Origin: a virus
Direction: 5' to 3' (one strand)
IMG/VR virus record: IMGVR_UViG_3300030104_004548
Span: 1-29,691 of that record
DNA length: 29,691 bases
This document shows positions 3,582 to 29,691 of this stretch, one piece after another. The translations under genes and the position numbers were made by a program. Every line of letters starts with the position of its first letter. Position 1 is the stretch's first letter. A model generated the notes under the pieces. That model worked only from the letters and a program-made list of their open reading frames with translations, was not told the DNA's origin and searched no databases.

Positions 3582-5953
3582 TATTTTTTCCTCTTACTTT
3601 TTGACGGCTTCTTAGATGCGGAAGAAGGTGCGTCTGATTTGTCTTTAATTGCATCTTGGGCGTCTTTTCTTAACATAGACAGGTTATCATCTAATCTCTT
3701 TTCAAATAAAGTTCCAGCCATTTTAGACTTTTGTTTTACTTGGTCTAAGTCAGTTTTAAACTTCTCAACTTCTACTTTCTGTTTAAGATGTACATTTTCT
3801 CTGGTAAGAGTTTGCATGTCGCCATTGACTTTCTTTAACTCTGCAGATAATTGTTCAACTTGTGCAGAAAGCTGTTGAATTGTGTCTGTTCGTTCTAAAA
3901 CACCCTCCATATCAAATACTTCGGTTTTCTTGAGGACTTCAGCCTTATCAATAATGCCTTTGCCATATGCATCCATATAAAATTCGAGTTCCGCATATCT
4001 GTTACTTGGAAGTGTCGAACCTGATACGTACACAACATCATATTTACCGATAGTAATATCGTTTACGATTTTTACTTCATTAGTCTTATCATCGTATAAT
4101 TTTTTATTTATTGCAAATTCAGTTAATGAATTGTTTGGATTAACAACTCTCATAACTTTTTCTTCTTGATACAACTCTTGCATCATTTGAATAGCTACTT
4201 TTGCTACTCTTTGTAAGCAAGACTCTACATCAGCAAGTTTTGACTTTATTTTTCTTTGACCAAACTCATCTAGGGATATAGTGGCCTTATAAGTTTGTGG
4301 GGCAGCTTGTGAGTTACCCATCATCATTTCATACAACCCGAGCTGATGGTCTATGTCGTTTTTCGCTGTCTGTTCGTTGTTGTAGAGCTCATTAGGAAGA
4401 GGTGCTGGTGATGCTACTACTGGCTGCCCCATATCAAAATCCACTTCTATACCAACTCCAGGCATTGCCCATTTCTCTTCAAATTCCTTCATATCTACAC
4501 TACCAGAAGGAACAAGGACCTTCATATTGGTAGCTGTAGTAGCATGGGCTATAATTAATGACCTGGTTTTATTGATATAGTCTTGTAAACCTTTAACCAT
4601 ACGAACATCACTCATTGGATATGGTGTTCTAGTATGAAGATTTACCATTGGGACTATAGGATAATTGCTAGATGGCAATATCCTTGAGTAGATATGAGTA
4701 TCGCCTATGACAACGCATTGCTTTACTTGCTTAACTGCGATTGGAACTGTTTCAATAAGCCCTTCACCTATTAAGTGAGCTTTACTTTTTATTTCAATTC
4801 CTGGCAATTGAGAAGCTTGACCAGCTTGTATCATTGCATTTTCTCTTGCATCTTTAACTTGTTTATCGATGCCTTCTCTTAATCTAATTAACTCAAGTTC
4901 CATTCTATCTGGAAGTATGCTTCCTAATTGAACTTGTTCTGTTAGTTGCTTTTCTTGTTCCATGTATTGGACTTCTAACTCTTCAGACATTTTATCAATA
5001 TCTTCGTCTAAAGCTTTTAGATTAGCATCTAACATTTGTTGTTTCATTTGAGACTGCTGTTCTTGAGCCTGAGCTACTTTTTCAGCGCCTTCAATTATTT
5101 TGCCATTGAGAATCCCTACCTCAGTGCTTATATACTGTTGAAATTCGTCTTCATTAAAACGATATTCTTTTCCAGTATATTTTTCATGCACTCTGTACAT
5201 ATTTACGGATACCTTATAAAAACGTTCGTATCCTCTTACATATTCATTGTCTCCCTCGGCAAGAGTATCAATGTCTCCAGGAAATGTCAGTCCTGTATTA
5301 TCAGTACGACCAGTTATTATACTGTCGCTATCATAAGAACCAGAAGATGCATCAATGGCATTTTTATATTGGGGATATAAAGATTTTGCTTGTTCTTTAG
5401 TAAAATTTCTTGATATAATTATATTTTCAGCATCGTCAAAAAATGGATCTCTGGAGTTAGGGTCTACATAAACATCTAAAGGGTCTATGTCTTTAAACAT
5501 AACTTCACCTTTACCATCATCAGCTAAAGGATTTTGATATACTAGTAAATAGCCTAATCCTGTAACATAATAATCATCGATAGCTTTACGTATAGAACCT
5601 CTACCATCAGAGACATCGTACATATATGTTAAAAGATTATTTAAAACATTAGCGACTTTGGTATCGCTATCTTCTCTTGGAGATACTTTAAAGGAGGGTC
5701 TGTTAGCAGTTAACATAGCTTTTGCTGTTTCAACTGCTGGATGAATACGATTGACGACAATAGGCGCCTGTCCTCTGCCTTCCATCACTTTAGTCTGTTC
5801 TTCAGTCCACTGTCGACCTAATCTGTATTCTTGATCTTCTCTGGCTTGTGATTCCCAAATATCTCTTTTACGTTTGTATAAATCAAAAAGACGTTTGGTT
5901 TCGTCTGCTATCGGCTCTACAGATTGGTCTTCAGGCTTTTCATATTGCGACAC
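3581..5953 (-). CDS. Portal protein (P22-like, large)
   Basis: 790 aa. It forms the dodecameric vertex through which DNA is packed and ejected. The first ~290 residues read as a portal of the large P22-like class (RLFDLYKRKRDIWESQ, QAPIVVNRIHPAVETAKAML, then an IDPLDVYVDP segment). Two features stand out. A long charged coiled-coil insertion occupies about residues 285-390 and is rich in Gln, Glu and Lys. A second coiled coil near 700-770 (LSAQVEQLSAELKKVNG and onward) fits an extended C-terminal barrel as in P22. The protein starts at GTG with AAAGG upstream. It lies between the large terminase and the scaffold, as expected. It may be somewhat longer than P22 gp1 because of the insertion. 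Confidence 0.9.
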   Translation of the reverse strand: MSQYEKPEDQSVEPIADETKRLFDLYKRKRDIWESQAREDQEYRLGRQWTEEQTKVMEGRGQAPIVVNRIHPAVETAKAMLTANRPSFKVSPREDSDTKVANVLNNLLTYMYDVSDGRGSIRKAIDDYYVTGLGYLLVYQNPLADDGKGEVMFKDIDPLDVYVDPNSRDPFFDDAENIIISRNFTKEQAKSLYPQYKNAIDASSGSYDSDSIITGRTDNTGLTFPGDIDTLAEGDNEYVRGYERFYKVSVNMYRVHEKYTGKEYRFNEDEFQQYISTEVGILNGKIIEGAEKVAQAQEQQSQMKQQMLDANLKALDEDIDKMSEELEVQYMEQEKQLTEQVQLGSILPDRMELELIRLREGIDKQVKDARENAMIQAGQASQLPGIEIKSKAHLIGEGLIETVPIAVKQVKQCVVIGDTHIYSRILPSSNYPIVPMVNLHTRTPYPMSDVRMVKGLQDYINKTRSLIIAHATTATNMKVLVPSGSVDMKEFEEKWAMPGVGIEVDFDMGQPVVASPAPLPNELYNNEQTAKNDIDHQLGLYEMMMGNSQAAPQTYKATISLDEFGQRKIKSKLADVESCLQRVAKVAIQMMQELYQEEKVMRVVNPNNSLTEFAINKKLYDDKTNEVKIVNDITIGKYDVVYVSGSTLPSNRYAELEFYMDAYGKGIIDKAEVLKKTEVFDMEGVLERTDTIQQLSAQVEQLSAELKKVNGDMQTLTRENVHLKQKVEVEKFKTDLDQVKQKSKMAGTLFEKRLDDNLSMLRKDAQDAIKDKSDAPSSASKKPSKSKRKK

Positions 5954-10798: not shown

Positions 10799-11031
10799 TG
10801 CGCGGGTATATAGCCTTAGGTAGGACCATAGTGTTGTATGGTTCTGCCGTAGGGTTTTGGTATTTAGTAATGCCTGCTCATTGGGTGCAACTGATCATAA
10901 TGATGGTAGTATTTGGTATCGTATTCGGTATATCATTTATTATCATTGGTAATATAGTCAACTATGTTATCAAAAGGCTTAGACAAAGGTATAAATGGGC
11001 TAAGCAAGTGTTTATAAATCCGAGTAGATAG
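10798..11031 (+). CDS. Small two-span membrane protein
   Basis: 77 aa. Two hydrophobic segments are seen, about residues 8-25 (GRTIVLYGSAVGFWYLVM) and 29-58 (WVQLIIMMVVFGIVFG and onward), followed by a strongly basic tail (KRLRQRYKWAKQ). The positive tail suggests that the C-terminus stays in the cytoplasm. An early, small membrane protein in a temperate phage could serve in superinfection exclusion, but there is no direct evidence. The stop codon lies inside the first copy of an 18-bp tandem duplication. Confidence 0.7.
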   Translation: MRGYIALGRTIVLYGSAVGFWYLVMPAHWVQLIIMMVVFGIVFGISFIIIGNIVNYVIKRLRQRYKWAKQVFINPSR

Positions 11032-11050
11032 TTAAATCCGAGTAGATAGT
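11015..11050 (+). repeat. Tandem duplication, two 18-bp copies
   Basis: TAAATCCGAGTAGATAGT occurs twice in direct, gap-free succession (11015-11032 and 11033-11050). The first copy holds the last codons and stop of the membrane-protein gene; the second is non-coding. It looks like a recent slippage duplication. Confidence 0.9.
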
Positions 11051-11062
11051 AATATTAGGTAT

Positions 11063-11093
11063 TAGGGGGCTATATGTCCCCTTATATCTTTTT
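11063..11093 (+). terminator. Intrinsic terminator before the large RNA region
   Basis: TAGGGGG pairs with CCCCTTA (one G-U) around an 8-nt loop, then TATCTTTTT. This is the best classical terminator in the early region. It separates the membrane-protein gene from the long non-coding segment that follows, which implies that the latter has its own promoter or depends on read-through. Confidence 0.7.
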
Positions 11094-11099
11094 AAAAAG

Positions 11100-11890
11100 T
11101 TTAGAAACAAAATTACGCAAGTAATCGGCAGTCTCATGTCGTTAGAATAAGTGTAGCAATACACCTAAAGTGGAATCCATGTTACGGAGGAAGCGCCAGT
11201 AATGGTTCATAGAGACAAGCACCTATATAGTGACTCTGAGGGCATCAGAAGAACTATACATCAAATGGTAATGATGTTGAGCTTAGTGATAAGCAATAAG
11301 ATAAGGTGTAGGATAATCAAGCTGAGGTGTGGTGCTAAGGCTGTTATCCAGTATTATGGTTAATCTTATAGTGATATAAGGCAACACCAGAAATACAGTG
11401 ATTATTGTTCACCAGATGATAATTGCAGTGTTGAGTAAGGTATTATGTATTGTAACGCAATATATAGCCTTTCCGATAGCGACTTAACACACACTACTGT
11501 TTAGCACTAAAAAATAAACAGACTAGCATGGGCGACCATGTTTAAGGAGAACAGCATCGGCATTAGTATCTCAAAGTGCGCTAATACTATGAACATATAA
11601 CCGTAAGGTTCACTGTGGAACATAGTGTATTACATCCTCCCAAGGGTTGTATTACTTGGTGACAAAAGCACTATACAGGTGGGCACATTTGTATAGCTGT
11701 TAGTAGTTGCTGAAAGAGACTAATGATGGAAAGCATGAAGCCGTATTTCATGTGCGCATGACAGTGTACTACACGCAAGTGTAGTGGATATGACTTAAAC
11801 CTTGAAAAGGGAATTTAGAGTCTAAAGTACTGTCGGAATAGGGATTAATCTCATCCTTATTCAACCCGTAAGGGTTCTTAGAACTTTTTA
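11100..11890 (+). ncRNA. Candidate giant structured non-coding RNA (~790 nt)
   Basis: No convincing gene in either strand, yet it is dense in hairpins, many with GNRA loops: ATTAC-GCAA-GTAAT (11112-11125), GTGTA-GCAA-TACAC (11151-11164), CATGG-GCGA-CCATG (11527-11540), AACC-GTAA-GGTT (11599-11610), ACTACAC-GCAA-GTGTAGT (11768-11785), CCTT-GAAA-AGGG inside a longer GACTTAAA stem (11792-11822), and AACCC-GTAA-GGGTT (11863-11876). There is also a 7-bp stem stacked at 11611-11627 and a 10-bp stem at 11836-11862. GTTC-TTA-GAAC-TTTTT (11874-11889) may end it. Size, GNRA density and a phage setting recall giant ornate RNAs such as GOLLD or ROOL. Membership cannot be decided by eye; strand is taken from the flanking genes. 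Confidence 0.6.
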
Positions 11891-12209: not shown

Positions 12210-12235
12210 GTAAAAGACAACTATATGCAATTTGG

Positions 12236-12370
12236 TATAGTAGATGATCGCACCAGGTACGCCTGACCGCCAAGAGCATGGTCCTAATTGAAGGAATATT
12301 GCCAAGAGCCTGTCCGCTAACCCCTGAGACATCCTGATTCTACTATACCTTTGTGTATTAAACCTAAGGA
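12236..12370 (+). ncRNA. Non-coding segment with UACG hairpin and repeated box
   Basis: No gene. CAGG-TACG-CCTG (12254-12265) is a short hairpin with a UNCG-class loop. The box GCCAAGAGC appears twice (12269-12277 and 12301-12309), each followed by a similar TG-TCC context. Repeated boxes beside a stable hairpin suggest a small structured or protein-binding RNA. Function unknown. Confidence 0.4.
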
Positions 12371-12786: not shown

Positions 12787-13195
12787 TTATATATATGCAG
12801 ACCATACAAGGTTTGCCGACCAATCGGGTTATACCCCCGTATACCCAGGGTAGTAGCTGTTTAACGGCTTGCTGCTACCCAAACAATTAATAGAGAGGAT
12901 ATTGACAGGCGAGTACTATGTAGCTGATAACTGGGATAGTTTACTATCTGACTATCACTAACGAGGGTCAAGCCTCTCTAAAACTTAACACCCGTCATCG
13001 ATAGTACTGCACTGAGGGCTTCGGCCTGTTGATGGGTGTAAATCTGGCTGGCATACCTAACAGAGAGGCGGATTAAAGCACTGCAGTGGTGTCTGATGGA
13101 TTAACCATCTATGTCAAACTAAAGTATGCCAATAATTGGTTAACCACGGGGAGTGAGAGTCTAGTAGCGCTAGAGAGGCTCCCCACAACTTTGGA
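12787..13195 (+). ncRNA. Second structured RNA region (~400 nt)
   Basis: No gene over 400 nt, but successive long stems: GGGTAGTAGC/GCTGCTACCC (10 bp, 12848-12880); TAGAGAGG/CCTCTCTA closing 12891-12980, continued by TTGAC/GTCAA; ACACCC/GGGTGT (12988-13039) enclosing GGC-TTCG-GCC with a classical cUUCGg loop (13017-13026); GGCATAC/GTATGCC closing 13050-13130 around GATGG-ATTAA-CCATC; and GGGGAG/CTCCCC (13148-13184) around TCTAG-TAGCG-CTAGA. The stems form five consecutive domains. This could be one multi-domain RNA or several small ones. The strand is inferred from neighbouring genes. Confidence 0.6.
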
Positions 13196-15499: not shown

Positions 15500-16298
15500 A
15501 AAGTTCAAATCTGTAGAATGGTCAGGACCAGCTTGGTATTCACATGTAAAAGATGAGAATGGATTTCCAAGTGTTGTGAAATTAGAATACTTCCACCCTC
15601 TTGATTTAGGTACAGCAGCAAATACCGATTGGGATGGTGAAGATTTAATTAAAATATATGCCAAATTAAGAAAAAAGTACCCTGAGATAGGCAAATCTTG
15701 GGTGCAAGGCAATATACATTCACATCATAGTATGGGAGCATTCTATAGTGGTACAGATGAACAACAGTGTATCGATGGAGCAAATGAAAACTTTTATTAT
15801 TCATTAGTAGTATCAACAAAAGCAGGCAAAGAACTGCATTGCGGCGTATCATACCCCGATCAGTTCGGACAAGTACATATTGTTGAAATGGATGATATAG
15901 AAGTTGAATTAAATAGGTCATTCGATAAAGAATGGAAAGAACAAGCAGCATTTATCAAAAAGAATAAGAAACCAGAATCTGTAACATTATGGAAATCTAA
16001 ATATGGAAATTATAATAATGCAGGTCAAGCAACGTTGTTTAATTCTTATAAAAAAAAAGAAGAACCAAAAACAACAAAGCAAGATAGGTACGAAGAGCAC
16101 ATAGATTGGCTTAGTTACAATGGTTCTTATGGTTTAAACAGTGAACAACAAGATCAGATGTATGATTGGGCAATGTTTGATGAGTTTGATGATATAATGC
16201 TTGAGTTTGAAAAAGGAAAGATAACGAAAAAAACTAGAGACTCAAAACTCAAGAAACTAGGAGTAGACGAATATGGCAGACCGTTACTTACGCAATAA
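15432..16298 (+). CDS. JAB/JAMM metallopeptidase (deubiquitinase-like)
   Basis: 288 aa. The JAMM zinc motif is complete: Glu29 (VEWSGP), then H96-S-H98 followed after seven residues by Ser106 and, two further on, Asp109 (NIHSHHSMGAFYSGTDEQ). This domain hydrolyses peptide or isopeptide bonds after the C-terminal glycine of ubiquitin-like proteins, for maturation or removal from targets. The C-terminal ~110 residues (from about 180) are charged and helical, possibly a substrate-binding tail. The start follows AAGGAGG within the end of the E2 gene, a 68-nt overlap, and its own end overlaps E1 by 26 nt. Likely job: mature the Ubl by removing its terminal Ile and recycle conjugates. Confidence 0.9.
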   Translation: MSSTSPKLVISSEQMDKVHYLLKKFKSVEWSGPAWYSHVKDENGFPSVVKLEYFHPLDLGTAANTDWDGEDLIKIYAKLRKKYPEIGKSWVQGNIHSHHSMGAFYSGTDEQQCIDGANENFYYSLVVSTKAGKELHCGVSYPDQFGQVHIVEMDDIEVELNRSFDKEWKEQAAFIKKNKKPESVTLWKSKYGNYNNAGQATLFNSYKKKEEPKTTKQDRYEEHIDWLSYNGSYGLNSEQQDQMYDWAMFDEFDDIMLEFEKGKITKKTRDSKLKKLGVDEYGRPLLTQ

Positions 16299-16953
16299 AG
16301 ACCTTATCAACCAATCAAGGCTAGATAAGATTACAGTAATAGGAGCTGGTGGTATAGGCTCTGCATTACTACAAAACGCTGCAATAATGGGATTTAAAGA
16401 AATAACCGTCTGGGACCCTGATATGTTAGAGGAACATAATTTATCCACAACATCATGGCCAGAGAAGTTCTTAAATATGCCAAAAGTAGCAGCTGCAGAA
16501 ACTGTTCTTAAGAATCTAAACAAGAAAGTATCTGTAAAAACAAAACCAGTATTCTGGCAAACAGGATCACCATTGGAAAATAAAGTATTTCTTACACCAG
16601 ATAATATGGAATGTAGAAAATATGTATATGAACAATGGAAGAAAAATCCAGATAGAGAGTTCTTAATAGATATGAGAATGGGGGCATTAGGATTTGAAAT
16701 AATAACCGTTACACGAGAGAACGATTATTTCATGGATTCCTATGTCCCTTCCTCCTCTATTCCAGACGACCCATGTACAGCAAAGCATACCATATTTTGT
16801 GGTAGTCTAGCAGCATCATACGGCCTTGCACAAGCATTTAATGTCTTGCAAAATAGATTGTATTATGCTTACATTTGGGGGTCGTTAGGTCCTGTTAGTT
16901 TACGTAGAGAGCATCTCGTAAAACCACAGAAAATAGAAAAAACTGCAGCGTAG
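16273..16953 (+). CDS. E1-like ThiF-family activating enzyme
   Basis: 226 aa Rossmann-fold adenylyltransferase. The nucleotide loop is VIGAGGIGS (22-30), the acidic residue after strand 2 is Asp48 (TVWDPDMLEEHNLSTTSW), and DNMECRKYV (110-118) corresponds to the conserved Asp-Asn and Arg/Lys region. Cys168 in DDPCTAKHT is the candidate thioester cysteine. The protein is minimal: no CxxC zinc pairs of MoeB and no added UFD or FCCH domain. It would adenylate the Ubl C-terminal glycine and pass it to the E2. A good AGGAG lies before the ATG, inside the JAB gene. A 15-bp hairpin follows the gene. Confidence 0.9.
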   Translation: MADRYLRNKDLINQSRLDKITVIGAGGIGSALLQNAAIMGFKEITVWDPDMLEEHNLSTTSWPEKFLNMPKVAAAETVLKNLNKKVSVKTKPVFWQTGSPLENKVFLTPDNMECRKYVYEQWKKNPDREFLIDMRMGALGFEIITVTRENDYFMDSYVPSSSIPDDPCTAKHTIFCGSLAASYGLAQAFNVLQNRLYYAYIWGSLGPVSLRREHLVKPQKIEKTAA

Positions 16954-25011: not shown

Positions 25012-28000
25012 TTATTCGGTATCTTCAGGTGTAGTTTGTACATCTTTTTTAATCTCCCTTGATAATTGTATATAAGGTATGCCTGTAGCTTTTTCTATAG
25101 TGTAGAATGGATTTTCTATTACACCTTTAGTATCTCTTAGTATTCTACCAAAAGGGAACATAGTCCAAAGGTAATAATCTGTTAACCTACTATAATCATT
25201 AGACAACATAGAACTAAAGACGGCAGGGGCCAACCGCAAGCCTGGCGGAGTAACCATTTGGAGCGGAGCAACAGCAGTTGGCCAATTGCCGAAAAAGGCT
25301 CTATCTCTTTCTTCTTCATTACCAAACAACCAATCAGACGTATCTTGAAACCAAGAATAAGGTTGAGGCATAGCAGTTTCGAAAAGAGAGTAAGCAAATA
25401 CATTGGACATACCAAGGACGAACATATCGCTTATAGTTTGTCGTTTAAATCTTTCATACTCCATAGTACCTGGACGATAACCATGAAGTCTTGCTTCTTT
25501 ATTAATATCATTTCTAAATCTTACAGAGTTCCAAGCCCAAGTTTGAAAACGTGTCATTACTTTACCTAAAGCAGTAGCACTAAATGCTGGTCTATATGGA
25601 GCAGAATATAAGAACTGTGTAGCTGTTACACCCTTCTTAGCCATTTCAATTAAAAATGGTTCATTTAAGTCCATATTAGCATGACCATATAGATCTCTTG
25701 CTTGTAAGTAATGCGCAGCAAAAGCGTCTCTTCTTAATGCTCTTTCAGGTGTTCTCATAAACCAAGCAGCTTTCTGGAACGCAGCTTCATCAATTTGATG
25801 CTTCTTAGCTAAGCTAATAAGACTTTCATCTTTAACCATTGGGTCTTTTTCTAATAACTTTTTAGCATCTCTTAAAAATCTTCTATATTTACCCTTTTTA
25901 AAGCTAGGATTGAGTCCAGCCTCATATAATACAAAGTTTGGAACAACACCATGACTGATCGCCCACTCTTCAATTTGTTTTTTAGACTCCCAACCTGTTG
26001 CTTTTCCAGCAATTTGAGTTCTCCAATACTCTACATTTCTAGCATTTCTCCAATTCTTCCAACCTGTAGATTGTATAGTATGTACAGTACCACCAAATAT
26101 ATTACCAGCTGCAGACTTAGGGTGAGCAAGTAAAGTGGCCATTTGATATTTAGCTTCAAGGTTAGACCAATGCCTTATATCCATTTCATCTACACCTTTT
26201 AAATTATCAGGAACTAAATCACTATCTTTCATTCCAATTTTTGTACGAATCCTATTTACCATATCTTTAACGTGATTATCAGCGAACCAACTATAAGGTG
26301 TACCTTTAATTTTCATTAAATCACCCATAGGACCATCAAGCCAAGACTCTTGAACTTTACTAGGGAAACCCATAGCTCTAGTGATGTAATCGTATATATA
26401 GTTATTCCAAGCAACAACCTGATCAGGACTATTCCATGTATCAATAGCCTTTCTGTTAAACTCTTGTAGCATCTTTTTAGATACAATCTGACCAATCTGT
26501 CTATGATAGGTGTCAATAAGATTTTTCTGGTAAATATCCCAAGAACCTAAATCTCTAGACCAACCAGGTAAATCAGTAGAACGAGATAACATATTACCAG
26601 CCACAGGGTCTTTCTCTAAATATCTAAAGTTTTCACCTTTACGACCCTCTGAAATCTCTTGTAATGCGCCATTAAGTAAATCAGTTTCATGAACATCGTT
26701 TACAATCCACTCACCAGACATAGATTTATATCGTAAAATAAGCTTACCAATCTCAACCTTTTTATCTTTATCAGACATCCCTGTACGACCTTCAACTTCT
26801 TTAATAGCAGCTTCAATAGCTCTTTTGGCTACTTTCTTATCTTGTATAAATTGAGGATGATAATCATTTGCTCTAAATTGGCCTGTTCTGTGGTATTTAG
26901 CTAAAGCAAGATTATTAATTAACTCTTGATATAACTTTTTACTTTCAGGGTCAACAGTCATTCTAATTTGTTCTTGAAGATTCTCAATCTGTATAGACCT
27001 AGATATTTTTCTAAGATTATCAAGACCAAGTCCCCAGCCTATGGGTTTACCCTCTTTCATATTTTTCATTATAACTTTAACAAACTTATTACTATCAATC
27101 ATTGGCAACATTGTATTCTCATTCCAATATTTAATGTCACCGTCTTTATCTTTCTGTACAAAGTCAAGAATAGGATCTTCAATATTATTATCTCTTACAT
27201 GTTTACCTAACTCTGGGTCATATTTATAATGCTTACCAGCAATCCAGCCATAAGTCTCAATTGCTCTTTTAGTTAAAGCATTGTTTATATTGTTAGCAAC
27301 CTGCCTACCAGTTTCTGTAAATGTTCCACCTTTTTTATTAACGCTAAACTTTTTCTTTTCAATACTCTTCCAACTTGCAATATCTTTGGCTTCTCTTAAA
27401 GAGGCCTCATATTCTTTAATTTTTATATAATACTGAGAATCTTTTTTATGTTTGTTTTTATTTTTAAAAGACCTTAAAGCACGTTCAGCAGTAACAACTT
27501 CACCTATATGCTGACCAATTCCTTCAGGAAGAGACTCATATCCAGTCTCATCTCTTAACAACTGTTCCAATATATTCTTCTCATCTTCATCAGACTTAAG
27601 AGCCATTGCTTCAACTTTACCTAATACAAATTGTATATTTTCAATAGTATGAGTAGGTGTACCTATGTCTCCTTGACGCCATTCACCCTTATAGTTTTGA
27701 AATCTTCCTGACTCTTCAAATATAGTAAAGTCTTTAACCATCATCTCCCTGGATACTGTTTTAGGAAATAACATCCAATGACGTTTTGCAAGTTCAACAA
27801 CGTTGTCTTTTGTAATAGCACCTCTTTGAGACCAATACGTACCAGTTCTCATTTCTTGAAAGAAGTTATTTAATACTCTGTAGTCTTCAACTCCAAGAGC
27901 GTCAAAGTTTTTACGAAGAAGTGAACGACTTATTTGGTTTAAATTTTTAGCTGAAGCTATACTTTTACCGTAATAATTAACGTGTCCTATTAATTCATCA

Positions 28001-29691
28001 ACCATCTTACGTTCAAAGTCAGATAATTTTGTCTTACCCATTTTTTGATAACGTTCCCTAGCATGAACTATAGAATCAACATCAGACTCGAATACATCTT
28101 TAGGAGCAACTTTAGACACTTCAAGGCTTTTATTCTCACCTTCTAATGCTTGAGTAACATCTATATCAAGTTTTTCATTAGTTTTATAATCAAATTGCTC
28201 TGAATAAACTTTGAGGAAATCTCTAATAGCCCGATCACTAGTCCATGCAGCGTTTAATCCTGTTTTTTCAAATAAAGTAGAACTACCACTATTTTCAATT
28301 TCTCTTAATAATGGGTTAATAATATTTTTTAAATCACTAGATAAGCCTTTTAAATCTTTATATTTAGCTAGATTTTGGCCTTTATGATATGTAGACATCA
28401 TTAGTGTATCGAATAAGTAAGACTCTTCAGGACTTAATGGTCTTCCCTCTGAATCTTTATCTAAGCCCCATTTATTTTTAGTTTTATAATCTGATATTCT
28501 TTTCTCAATCTTTTCTTGATTCATAAAAGGTAAAACATCAGGGTCTACGTTGAATATTTTAGACAATGTAACCTTACCCTCTGGACTAACATTAGTAACT
28601 GTTAAGTAATCATTTATACTGGTCTCAGCAGTTTTTAATTTTTGAGACCTGTCTATTTCTTTAGTTTTGTCAACAAACTTTGCCATGTTATGTATAAACT
28701 CATCCTGCATTCCTGCATTCCTTGCTAAATCAATAGCTCTTAAAAGTTGCAAAGCAGAAGCCCTATCCATTGCATCGTTTTGCATGAACTCTGTGCCCTG
28801 TCTATAAACTCTATCAACCATATTACTTCTATAGGTCATAACATTTTCAATTGCTTGCATGTATAATTCATCAGTTTTAAAATACTTCACATGTTCCCAT
28901 GGAAATGAATATGCGTTAAATGCTTTCTTACTCCATTGACCACCTAAATCTTTAAAGAAGTCTTTATAAGCTGCAGGATTTTTTATTAACATTTTTCTAT
29001 TGTCTAATAAGTAAAGCTTTTCTCCGACTACTTTTTGTGTAACTGGACTCTTAGCACTCTTAAATGAAAATCGTCCCAATAAACCACCATCTACGCCCTC
29101 AAATGAGTCGTTAATAGCTTTTAACTCTAAAGCAATGTCATTAAAGTCATCATATCTTTGGTTTAATTTATCTAAATCAACTTTAGCTGCTATATCATCA
29201 CTATAATCAATTGGGTCTAATATTTCTACCATTCTAGCCAACATATCTCCACGTTGACTTTCGTTTAATAAGTGTATTTTATTAGAGAACTCTTTTATTT
29301 CATGAGCATAAAAACGTCTATTTTGGTCCCAATTTCTAGAGAAATAACCTTTATTAAAACCTTGGTATACTTGAAATAATCCTTGTCTAGCATGAAAGTT
29401 TGGACTGAATTTGCTTTGTAAATCTTTTTTATTGCCATTCCAATCAACTTTAAACAACGAATGCCAACCTGTATCGAAAAACTTTTGTTGTCCTACTAAT
29501 CCAAGTTCATCAAGTGGGTCAGAACCAAAACCAATTTCTGCTCTAAATAGTTCTCTAGAAAAATCTAATTCTTTTTTATCTGTTCTAGGCTCTATAAATA
29601 TTTCGTATGTCTTTTTATCTCCATAAGGACTAACTATTAAAGACTCTCTATTATCTTCTTTATATTTCTTTTGAGTAGCCTCTGGAAGCTT
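25012..29691 (-). CDS. Giant internal virion / polyvalent-type protein (partial, 5' end missing)
   Basis: At least 1559 aa. The frame stays open to the right edge, so a TTG at 29457 is not the true start and the N-terminus lies outside. The sequence is charged and helical for the first ~1000 visible residues, with no enzyme motif I recognise. The last ~400 (from about LLAHPKSAAGNIFGG) are more hydrophobic and contain LGKVMTRFQTWAWNSVRFR, then FVLGMSNVFAYSLFETAMPQ. This end resembles the C-terminal domain of phage polyvalent proteins (LPD38-type), thought to be packed in the virion and injected with DNA. It is the last late gene before the integrase region. An alternative is an internal core/ejection protein without enzymatic domains. 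Confidence 0.75.
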   Translation of the reverse strand, partial: KLPEATQKKYKEDNRESLIVSPYGDKKTYEIFIEPRTDKKELDFSRELFRAEIGFGSDPLDELGLVGQQKFFDTGWHSLFKVDWNGNKKDLQSKFSPNFHARQGLFQVYQGFNKGYFSRNWDQNRRFYAHEIKEFSNKIHLLNESQRGDMLARMVEILDPIDYSDDIAAKVDLDKLNQRYDDFNDIALELKAINDSFEGVDGGLLGRFSFKSAKSPVTQKVVGEKLYLLDNRKMLIKNPAAYKDFFKDLGGQWSKKAFNAYSFPWEHVKYFKTDELYMQAIENVMTYRSNMVDRVYRQGTEFMQNDAMDRASALQLLRAIDLARNAGMQDEFIHNMAKFVDKTKEIDRSQKLKTAETSINDYLTVTNVSPEGKVTLSKIFNVDPDVLPFMNQEKIEKRISDYKTKNKWGLDKDSEGRPLSPEESYLFDTLMMSTYHKGQNLAKYKDLKGLSSDLKNIINPLLREIENSGSSTLFEKTGLNAAWTSDRAIRDFLKVYSEQFDYKTNEKLDIDVTQALEGENKSLEVSKVAPKDVFESDVDSIVHARERYQKMGKTKLSDFERKMVDELIGHVNYYGKSIASAKNLNQISRSLLRKNFDALGVEDYRVLNNFFQEMRTGTYWSQRGAITKDNVVELAKRHWMLFPKTVSREMMVKDFTIFEESGRFQNYKGEWRQGDIGTPTHTIENIQFVLGKVEAMALKSDEDEKNILEQLLRDETGYESLPEGIGQHIGEVVTAERALRSFKNKNKHKKDSQYYIKIKEYEASLREAKDIASWKSIEKKKFSVNKKGGTFTETGRQVANNINNALTKRAIETYGWIAGKHYKYDPELGKHVRDNNIEDPILDFVQKDKDGDIKYWNENTMLPMIDSNKFVKVIMKNMKEGKPIGWGLGLDNLRKISRSIQIENLQEQIRMTVDPESKKLYQELINNLALAKYHRTGQFRANDYHPQFIQDKKVAKRAIEAAIKEVEGRTGMSDKDKKVEIGKLILRYKSMSGEWIVNDVHETDLLNGALQEISEGRKGENFRYLEKDPVAGNMLSRSTDLPGWSRDLGSWDIYQKNLIDTYHRQIGQIVSKKMLQEFNRKAIDTWNSPDQVVAWNNYIYDYITRAMGFPSKVQESWLDGPMGDLMKIKGTPYSWFADNHVKDMVNRIRTKIGMKDSDLVPDNLKGVDEMDIRHWSNLEAKYQMATLLAHPKSAAGNIFGGTVHTIQSTGWKNWRNARNVEYWRTQIAGKATGWESKKQIEEWAISHGVVPNFVLYEAGLNPSFKKGKYRRFLRDAKKLLEKDPMVKDESLISLAKKHQIDEAAFQKAAWFMRTPERALRRDAFAAHYLQARDLYGHANMDLNEPFLIEMAKKGVTATQFLYSAPYRPAFSATALGKVMTRFQTWAWNSVRFRNDINKEARLHGYRPGTMEYERFKRQTISDMFVLGMSNVFAYSLFETAMPQPYSWFQDTSDWLFGNEEERDRAFFGNWPTAVAPLQMVTPPGLRLAPAVFSSMLSNDYSRLTDYYLWTMFPFGRILRDTKGVIENPFYTIEKATGIPYIQLSREIKKDVQTTPEDTE

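Follow-up and report, generated by a model that had tools for sequence, protein, structure and literature searches.

Positions 11100–11890 of the DNA analysed here (IMG/VR record IMGVR_UViG_3300030104_004548, 29,691 nucleotides, the whole of which is called the window) carry a GOLLD RNA on the plus strand, with its core at about 11112–11859 and a sequence that places it as a divergent member of this known giant-RNA family. The element is real and not unprecedented, being a further member of a known RNA family that default annotation overlooked. In the reading that we regard as very probably correct, the stretch encodes one GOLLD RNA of about 750 nt whose two-domain fold is borne out by covariation, and whose assembly into a cage and possible cargo would be those suggested by the GOLLD structure already solved. 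The features of the element are collected in Table 1.

Table 1. Features of the GOLLD element and its flanks (positions in the window)
Feature	Position	Strand	Evidence
Terminator-like hairpin AGGGGGCUAUAUGUCCCCU with U-rich tail, upstream of the RNA	11063..11084	+	pattern scan
First hairpin, AUUAC-GCAA-GUAAU; homolog loops GCAA, GUAA or UUCG	11112..11125	+	alignment, GNRA scan
GNRA loops (position of the G)	11117, 11156, 11199, 11286, 11371, 11532, 11603, 11775, 11804, 11868	+	GNRA scan
GOLLD 5' domain (cap domain in the published cage)	11126..11427	+	alignment, covariation, held-out model
Pseudoknot, loop of the first 5'-domain stem	11131..11135 with 11212..11216	+	helix search, covariation
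Loop-loop helix, hairpin-loop bases with loop bases	11330..11334 with 11410..11414	+	helix search, covariation
GOLLD 3' domain, RF02032 model positions 1-416	11428..11857	+	covariance match, held-out model
Helix across the linker	11473..11477 with 11556..11560	+	helix search, covariation
Variable linker; in this phage with a GCGA-capped hairpin (about 11525-11542)	11491..11555	+	alignments
Insertion of about 19 nt including the GUAA-capped hairpin AACC-GUAA-GGUU; absent from homologs	11594..11612	+	alignments
8-bp hairpin UACUACAC-GCAA-GUGUAGUG, then conserved GAUA	11767..11786	+	covariance match, alignment
3'-terminal GOLLD hairpin with conserved UAAUCUCA	11839..11859	+	covariance match, alignment
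Extra GUAA-capped hairpin 3' of the core, not conserved in L004	11863..11877	+	alignment, GNRA scan

Identity of the element

In a permissive Rfam search, the GOLLD model RF02032 matched the 3' domain over the full length of the model, with a score of 123.9 bits and an E-value of 6.5e-34. The gathering score of this model is 150 bits, which is an annotation cut-off and no defining feature of GOLLD; because the window's score lies under it, the Rfam scan of the window at default thresholds reported nothing. The E-value of the match satisfies the cut-off of 1e-5 that was used for GOLLD in a structural study (PMC12286853). RF02032 models the 3' half of GOLLD only, and the 5' half of the element, which falls outside the model, gave no Rfam match in the permissive search.

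A preliminary description of this DNA had left the identity open among GOLLD, ROOL, a divergent member and a new class, and had proposed a covariance-model search against Rfam. The search points to a divergent GOLLD and leaves no place for ROOL or for a wholly new RNA class, the latter being ruled out by the GOLLD match of the 3' half. That the element might instead be a ROOL, OLE, HEARO or raiA-type RNA has practically no probability left and is considered refuted: size and phage setting are similar, but none of these families gave a match in the window at E up to 10, against an end-to-end match for GOLLD. The reading as a divergent GOLLD is thus supported by the RF02032 match, by a close homolog (L004, below) that scores above the gathering score, by compensatory changes and by the lack of a protein frame.

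GNRA-capped stems also mark the stretch. Ten of them (at least 4 pairs, G-U allowed) lie in 11100–11890, where at least seven had been claimed, compared with a mean of 0.67 and a maximum of 4 in 500 dinucleotide shuffles; when only stems of 5 or more Watson-Crick pairs are counted, there are 7, compared with 0.02 in shuffles. The reverse strand of the stretch holds zero GNRA-capped stems, and every other stretch of 791 bases in the window holds, on each strand, at most one stem that satisfies the stricter definition. The minimum free energy of 11100–11890 is −240.7 kcal/mol (z −8.7), a value that 0 of 20 shuffles equalled. This fold, 8.7 standard deviations better than shuffles, together with compensatory changes in both halves, confirms the folded RNA that had been proposed, and the claim of about 790 nt without a gene agrees with a longest internal open reading frame of 53 aa. 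Nothing beyond that short frame speaks for an untranslated gap or a protein gene with chance hairpins. This explanation is refuted, with a negligible residual probability, by the shuffle controls, the covariation, the lack of a long frame and indels of mixed length between homologs. Two outcomes had been named beforehand as speaking against a structured RNA, a conserved protein frame across the segment and a lack of covariation in homologs; no such frame was found, and compensatory change is heavy in both halves.

Covariation in two domains and their loop contacts

About 20 phage loci with both halves of the RNA were collected from viral metagenome contigs, among the matches listed. Closest is L004 (IMGVR_UViG_3300030451_004942), a related phage whose terminase is 94% identical to that of the window and whose GOLLD sits at the same place; this GOLLD is 75% identical to the window's over 798 bp, that is, over the whole RNA, and reaches 163.5 bits, above the Rfam gathering score. 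Other loci passing this score include L206 (171 bits), L210 (165.7 bits) and L226 (166.9 bits). Pattern scans of viral contigs for the 3' domain yielded at least 11 loci (L125, L169, L193, L201, L203, L205-L210); the first pattern was too loose, and true GOLLDs were sorted from chance matches by stem complementarity and context. For the 5' domain, a long exact motif was too specific, with L004 as its only match, and a 5'-domain pattern alone together with a 5' profile yielded L211 (the opposite end of the contig that carries L125), L214, L216, L221, L226, L230, L231, L236, L239 and L241. A 3' profile matches downstream in all 5'-pattern loci except L211, L229 and L230, in which the sequence ends before the 3' domain would begin. 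Six loci from the 5' scan pass the Rfam GOLLD threshold (L214, L216, L221, L226, L231, L241), and L236 and L239 fall below it, yet have a strong 3'-profile match. That the loci found by their 5' domain carry the GOLLD 3' domain wherever the sequence extends far enough is an independent test of the assignment of the 5' domain to GOLLD. In bacterial genomes, a single scan detected the 3' motif at two loci, in a Treponema MAG and in Bisgaard Taxon 45.

Both domains show extensive compensatory change. In an alignment of 19 sequences of the 5' domain, compensatory change affects 49 of the 64 pairs predicted by RNAalifold; 95.5% of cells are paired and 257 cells are changed on both sides, whereas a control in which partners were slid by 1–3 columns gave 31–44% paired and 24–44 cells with both-side changes. 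For the 3' domain (24 sequences), both-side changes occur in 64 of 76 pairs, with 86% of cells paired and 384 cells changed on both sides, against 33–43% and 59–92 cells in the slid control; in the 8-bp hairpin at 11767–11786, 5 of the 8 pairs have changed on both sides. Shuffled controls, too, were far lower. Because the alignments that were scored also served to derive the structures, these are favoured over their slid versions, but the size of the gap to the controls and the clean swaps far exceed such a bias. In a few distant homologs, several of the predicted helices are disrupted. When the window, L004 and L125/L211 were withheld from model building, the resulting models still recovered the window in register: the 5' model R2, which covers a 104-position part of the 5' domain, at 11214–11315 (89.3 bits, E 9.8e-17) and the 3' model R1 at 11728–11863 (70.9 bits, E 4.6e-14).

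The 5' half also bears on the case of a new giant-RNA class in which, through domain shuffling, the 3' half alone would be common to GOLLD while an unrelated 5' half would serve another function, a case that we hold to be improbable. Its appeal lies in the coverage of Rfam, which models the 3' half only and matches nothing in the window's 5' half, and in the GOLLD 5' half being known as less conserved (PMC12286853). Such a divergent 5' half is, however, already part of GOLLD as defined; moreover, in all homologs whose sequence does not end early, the 5' domain accompanies the GOLLD 3' domain, immediately upstream of it, in the same order and at similar spacing. When the 5' model was applied to four left-out GOLLDs, weak matches were obtained (L124, E 0.0009; L141, 0.0045; L103, 0.39; L110, 0.85), and these sit upstream of the 3' domain.

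A helix search that assumed no nesting recovered about 28 covarying helices, three of which cross others (the pseudoknot, the loop-loop helix and the helix across the linker in Table 1). The pseudoknot reads GUCUC/GAGAC, GCCUC/GAGGC, GCUUC/GAAGC, GUAUC/GAUAC and GCUUA/UAAGC across homologs. The helix across the linker, which is absent from the Rfam model, has the variants CCGAU/AUCGG, CUGAU/AUCAG and CUGUG/CACAG, among others. In the window, the covarying loop-loop helices are perfectly preserved; they may form inside a single molecule or link separate copies. In the unbiased helix search, the L20-J13/15 kissing contact known from the published structure did not stand out, and it is neither supported nor contradicted by that search. 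As for the GNRA caps, those at 11156, 11286 and 11371 retain GNRA in most homologs although the stem sequences change, as would be expected of docking loops, and those in the linker (11532), in the insertion (11603) and 3' of the core (11868) are restricted to this phage or its nearest kin. The linker at 11491–11555, near the start of the 3' domain and flanked by conserved sequence, is the most variable stretch of the alignments, in length as well as in sequence, and by its position it would correspond to the linker found disordered in the interior of the published cage (PMC12286853).

Genomic setting and distribution

The window covers part of the genome of a marine tailed phage, with portal and terminase genes on the left (minus strand) and genes for a Sak4-like protein and a primase-helicase on the right (plus strand); the GOLLD lies between these two blocks. 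A DNA similarity search with the window gave no match among annotated phages in GenBank, and the best relatives of its terminase among annotated phages are only about 27% identical. Also present are a ThiF-family (E1-like) protein adjoining the phage replication genes (16273–16953, plus strand) and a 1481-aa open reading frame without any PHROG match (25012–29457, minus strand). Of the flanks described earlier, the upstream terminator corresponds to the terminator-like hairpin of Table 1, just upstream of which a tandem direct repeat, AATCCGAGTAGATAGT, occurs at 11018–11050. At the 3' end, a hairpin and a U-tract are present as described, the hairpin at about 11863–11877 being followed by some bases and then by the U-tract, but this part of the claim is weaker because the terminator scan made no call there and the hairpin is absent from the nearest homolog, L004.

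GOLLD RNAs are carried by phages or prophages, frequently near tRNAs. The window has no tRNA genes; tRNA or tmRNA-like genes stand just upstream of GOLLD in L205, L214, L231, L221, L207 and L208. RNAs of about 80 nt were seen beside GOLLD at L004:656-735 (minus strand), L207:9078-9159, L208:967-1047, L214:4640-4720, L231:866-946 (minus strand) and L241:957-1032 (minus strand), and they match both ends of the Rfam tmRNA model above its gathering score without the tag-coding part. Those that were read have a 7-bp acceptor stem with G3-U70, a T-arm and, where the anticodon or tag region would be expected, a short stem. The G3-U70 pair is an identity mark of alanine. ARAGORN called neither a tRNA nor a tmRNA in these RNAs, which from their sequence are possibly tag-less tmRNA-like RNAs or one half of two-piece tmRNAs, the latter being known from marine phages (PMC9004378). 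In L193, the GOLLD 5' domain is preceded, at a distance of about 450 nt, by a match to the Pistol self-cleaving ribozyme (4845-4907, minus strand).

Further structured non-coding stretches occur downstream of GOLLD in the window, at 12228–12355 and 12796–12985, with a long closing stem GGUAUAGUAGA/UCUACUAUACC and, for 12796–12885, a fold z of −4.4. A conserved non-coding element at 13048–13137, closed by the stem GGCAUAC/GUAUGCC, is 88–94% identical in the GOLLD-less phages L013 and L018 and in L125; two of its stems show swaps (GCAC-UGCA-GUGG to GCUC-UGCA-GAGG; GAUGG/CCAUC to GAUAG/CUAUC), and its motif is present in 6 viral contigs. None of these three stretches has an Rfam match.

A terminase search gave 80 related phage loci, one of which, L004, carries the homolog described above. 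A genome-wide family search returned zero matches even for the window itself (G000), and since both default and family searches miss the window, absence of GOLLD in relatives was retested by DNA comparison and a purpose-built model. By DNA search in 49 records, the window included, this GOLLD occurs in the window and L004 only, and the purpose-built model, which recovers the window, did not find GOLLD in 19 other long records, some of about 53 kb. Presence among close relatives is therefore likely to be patchy, bearing in mind that contigs may be incomplete, and GOLLD looks accessory, with close relatives whose long contigs are without it. Presence here and absence there offer a natural comparison for function.

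This absence from most close relatives is also what one might expect of a decaying or non-assembling GOLLD derivative that is retained for some other role, such as that of a DNA element, as are the insertion of about 19 nt unseen in relatives and a score below those of the homologs that pass the Rfam threshold. With the covarying loop-loop helices intact and GNRA caps far above chance, we think such decay quite unlikely.

Proposed assembly and comparison with known systems

Since no sigma-70-like promoter was found just upstream of the element on the plus strand, we infer rather than observe that the phage transcribes it from that strand. By analogy with the published 14-mer, copies of the RNA would come together by themselves, with no protein involved, as a hollow and symmetric cage in which the 5' domains would form the caps and the 3' domains the rings, with the linkers inside (PMC12286853). 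Least certain, the cage might be made during infection and enclose or display cargo, which would be an accessory and not an essential function of the phage; candidate cargoes would be the linker of the RNA itself and perhaps parts of the translation machinery, for example tRNA-like RNAs or ribosomes. That the linker or molecules related to translation would be enclosed, taken as a step by itself, is a tentative suggestion borrowed from the published guess (PMC12286853), with the chances leaning against it. In a further possibility, which must be called doubtful, this marine lineage, whose 5' domain is shorter and which has loop-loop helices of its own, would form a structural subclass whose cage differs in symmetry or size from the 14-mer, and within that same doubtful case the helices 11131–11135/11212–11216 and 11330–11334/11410–11414 would act between molecules.

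Beyond a GOLLD member that default annotation overlooked, what is new here is the collection of full-length relatives together with the 5'-domain covariation, without any claim to a first report of the 5' helices. With about 20 alignable full-length relatives, the 5' covariation and the three pseudoknot or loop-loop helices can be mapped onto the solved cage.

Among known systems, ROOL resembles the element as a giant, cage-forming phage RNA of similar length, and differs from it in that neither its sequence nor its structure has a match in the window. The GOLLD of L004 differs by being without the hairpins at 11594–11612 and 11863–11877 and by a tmRNA-like small RNA downstream. Compared with RF02032, the window's 3' domain has the stem order of the model and its conserved GUGGAUA, AAAG and UAAUCUCA motifs, but is without one internal model hairpin (about 17 positions) and has about 19 nt inserted around 11594–11612. 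The best studied relative is GOLLD env-38, a marine RNA which in vitro forms a hollow, protein-free 14-mer cage resolved by cryo-EM, its caps made of 5' domains, its rings of 3' domains, and the linkers lying in the interior; in GOLLD generally, conservation is universal for the 3' region and lower for the 5' region, and expression goes up at lysis (PMC12286853). Env-38 has 833 nt with a 5' region of 420 nt and adjoins a Met-tRNA, whereas the window's 5' domain spans about 300–320 nt and no tRNA is found. As compared by the published layout, the two share the succession of 5' and 3' domains, a variable linker that lies early in the 3' domain, a large number of stems and loop contacts, and a marine origin, the latter in the case of the window's relatives.
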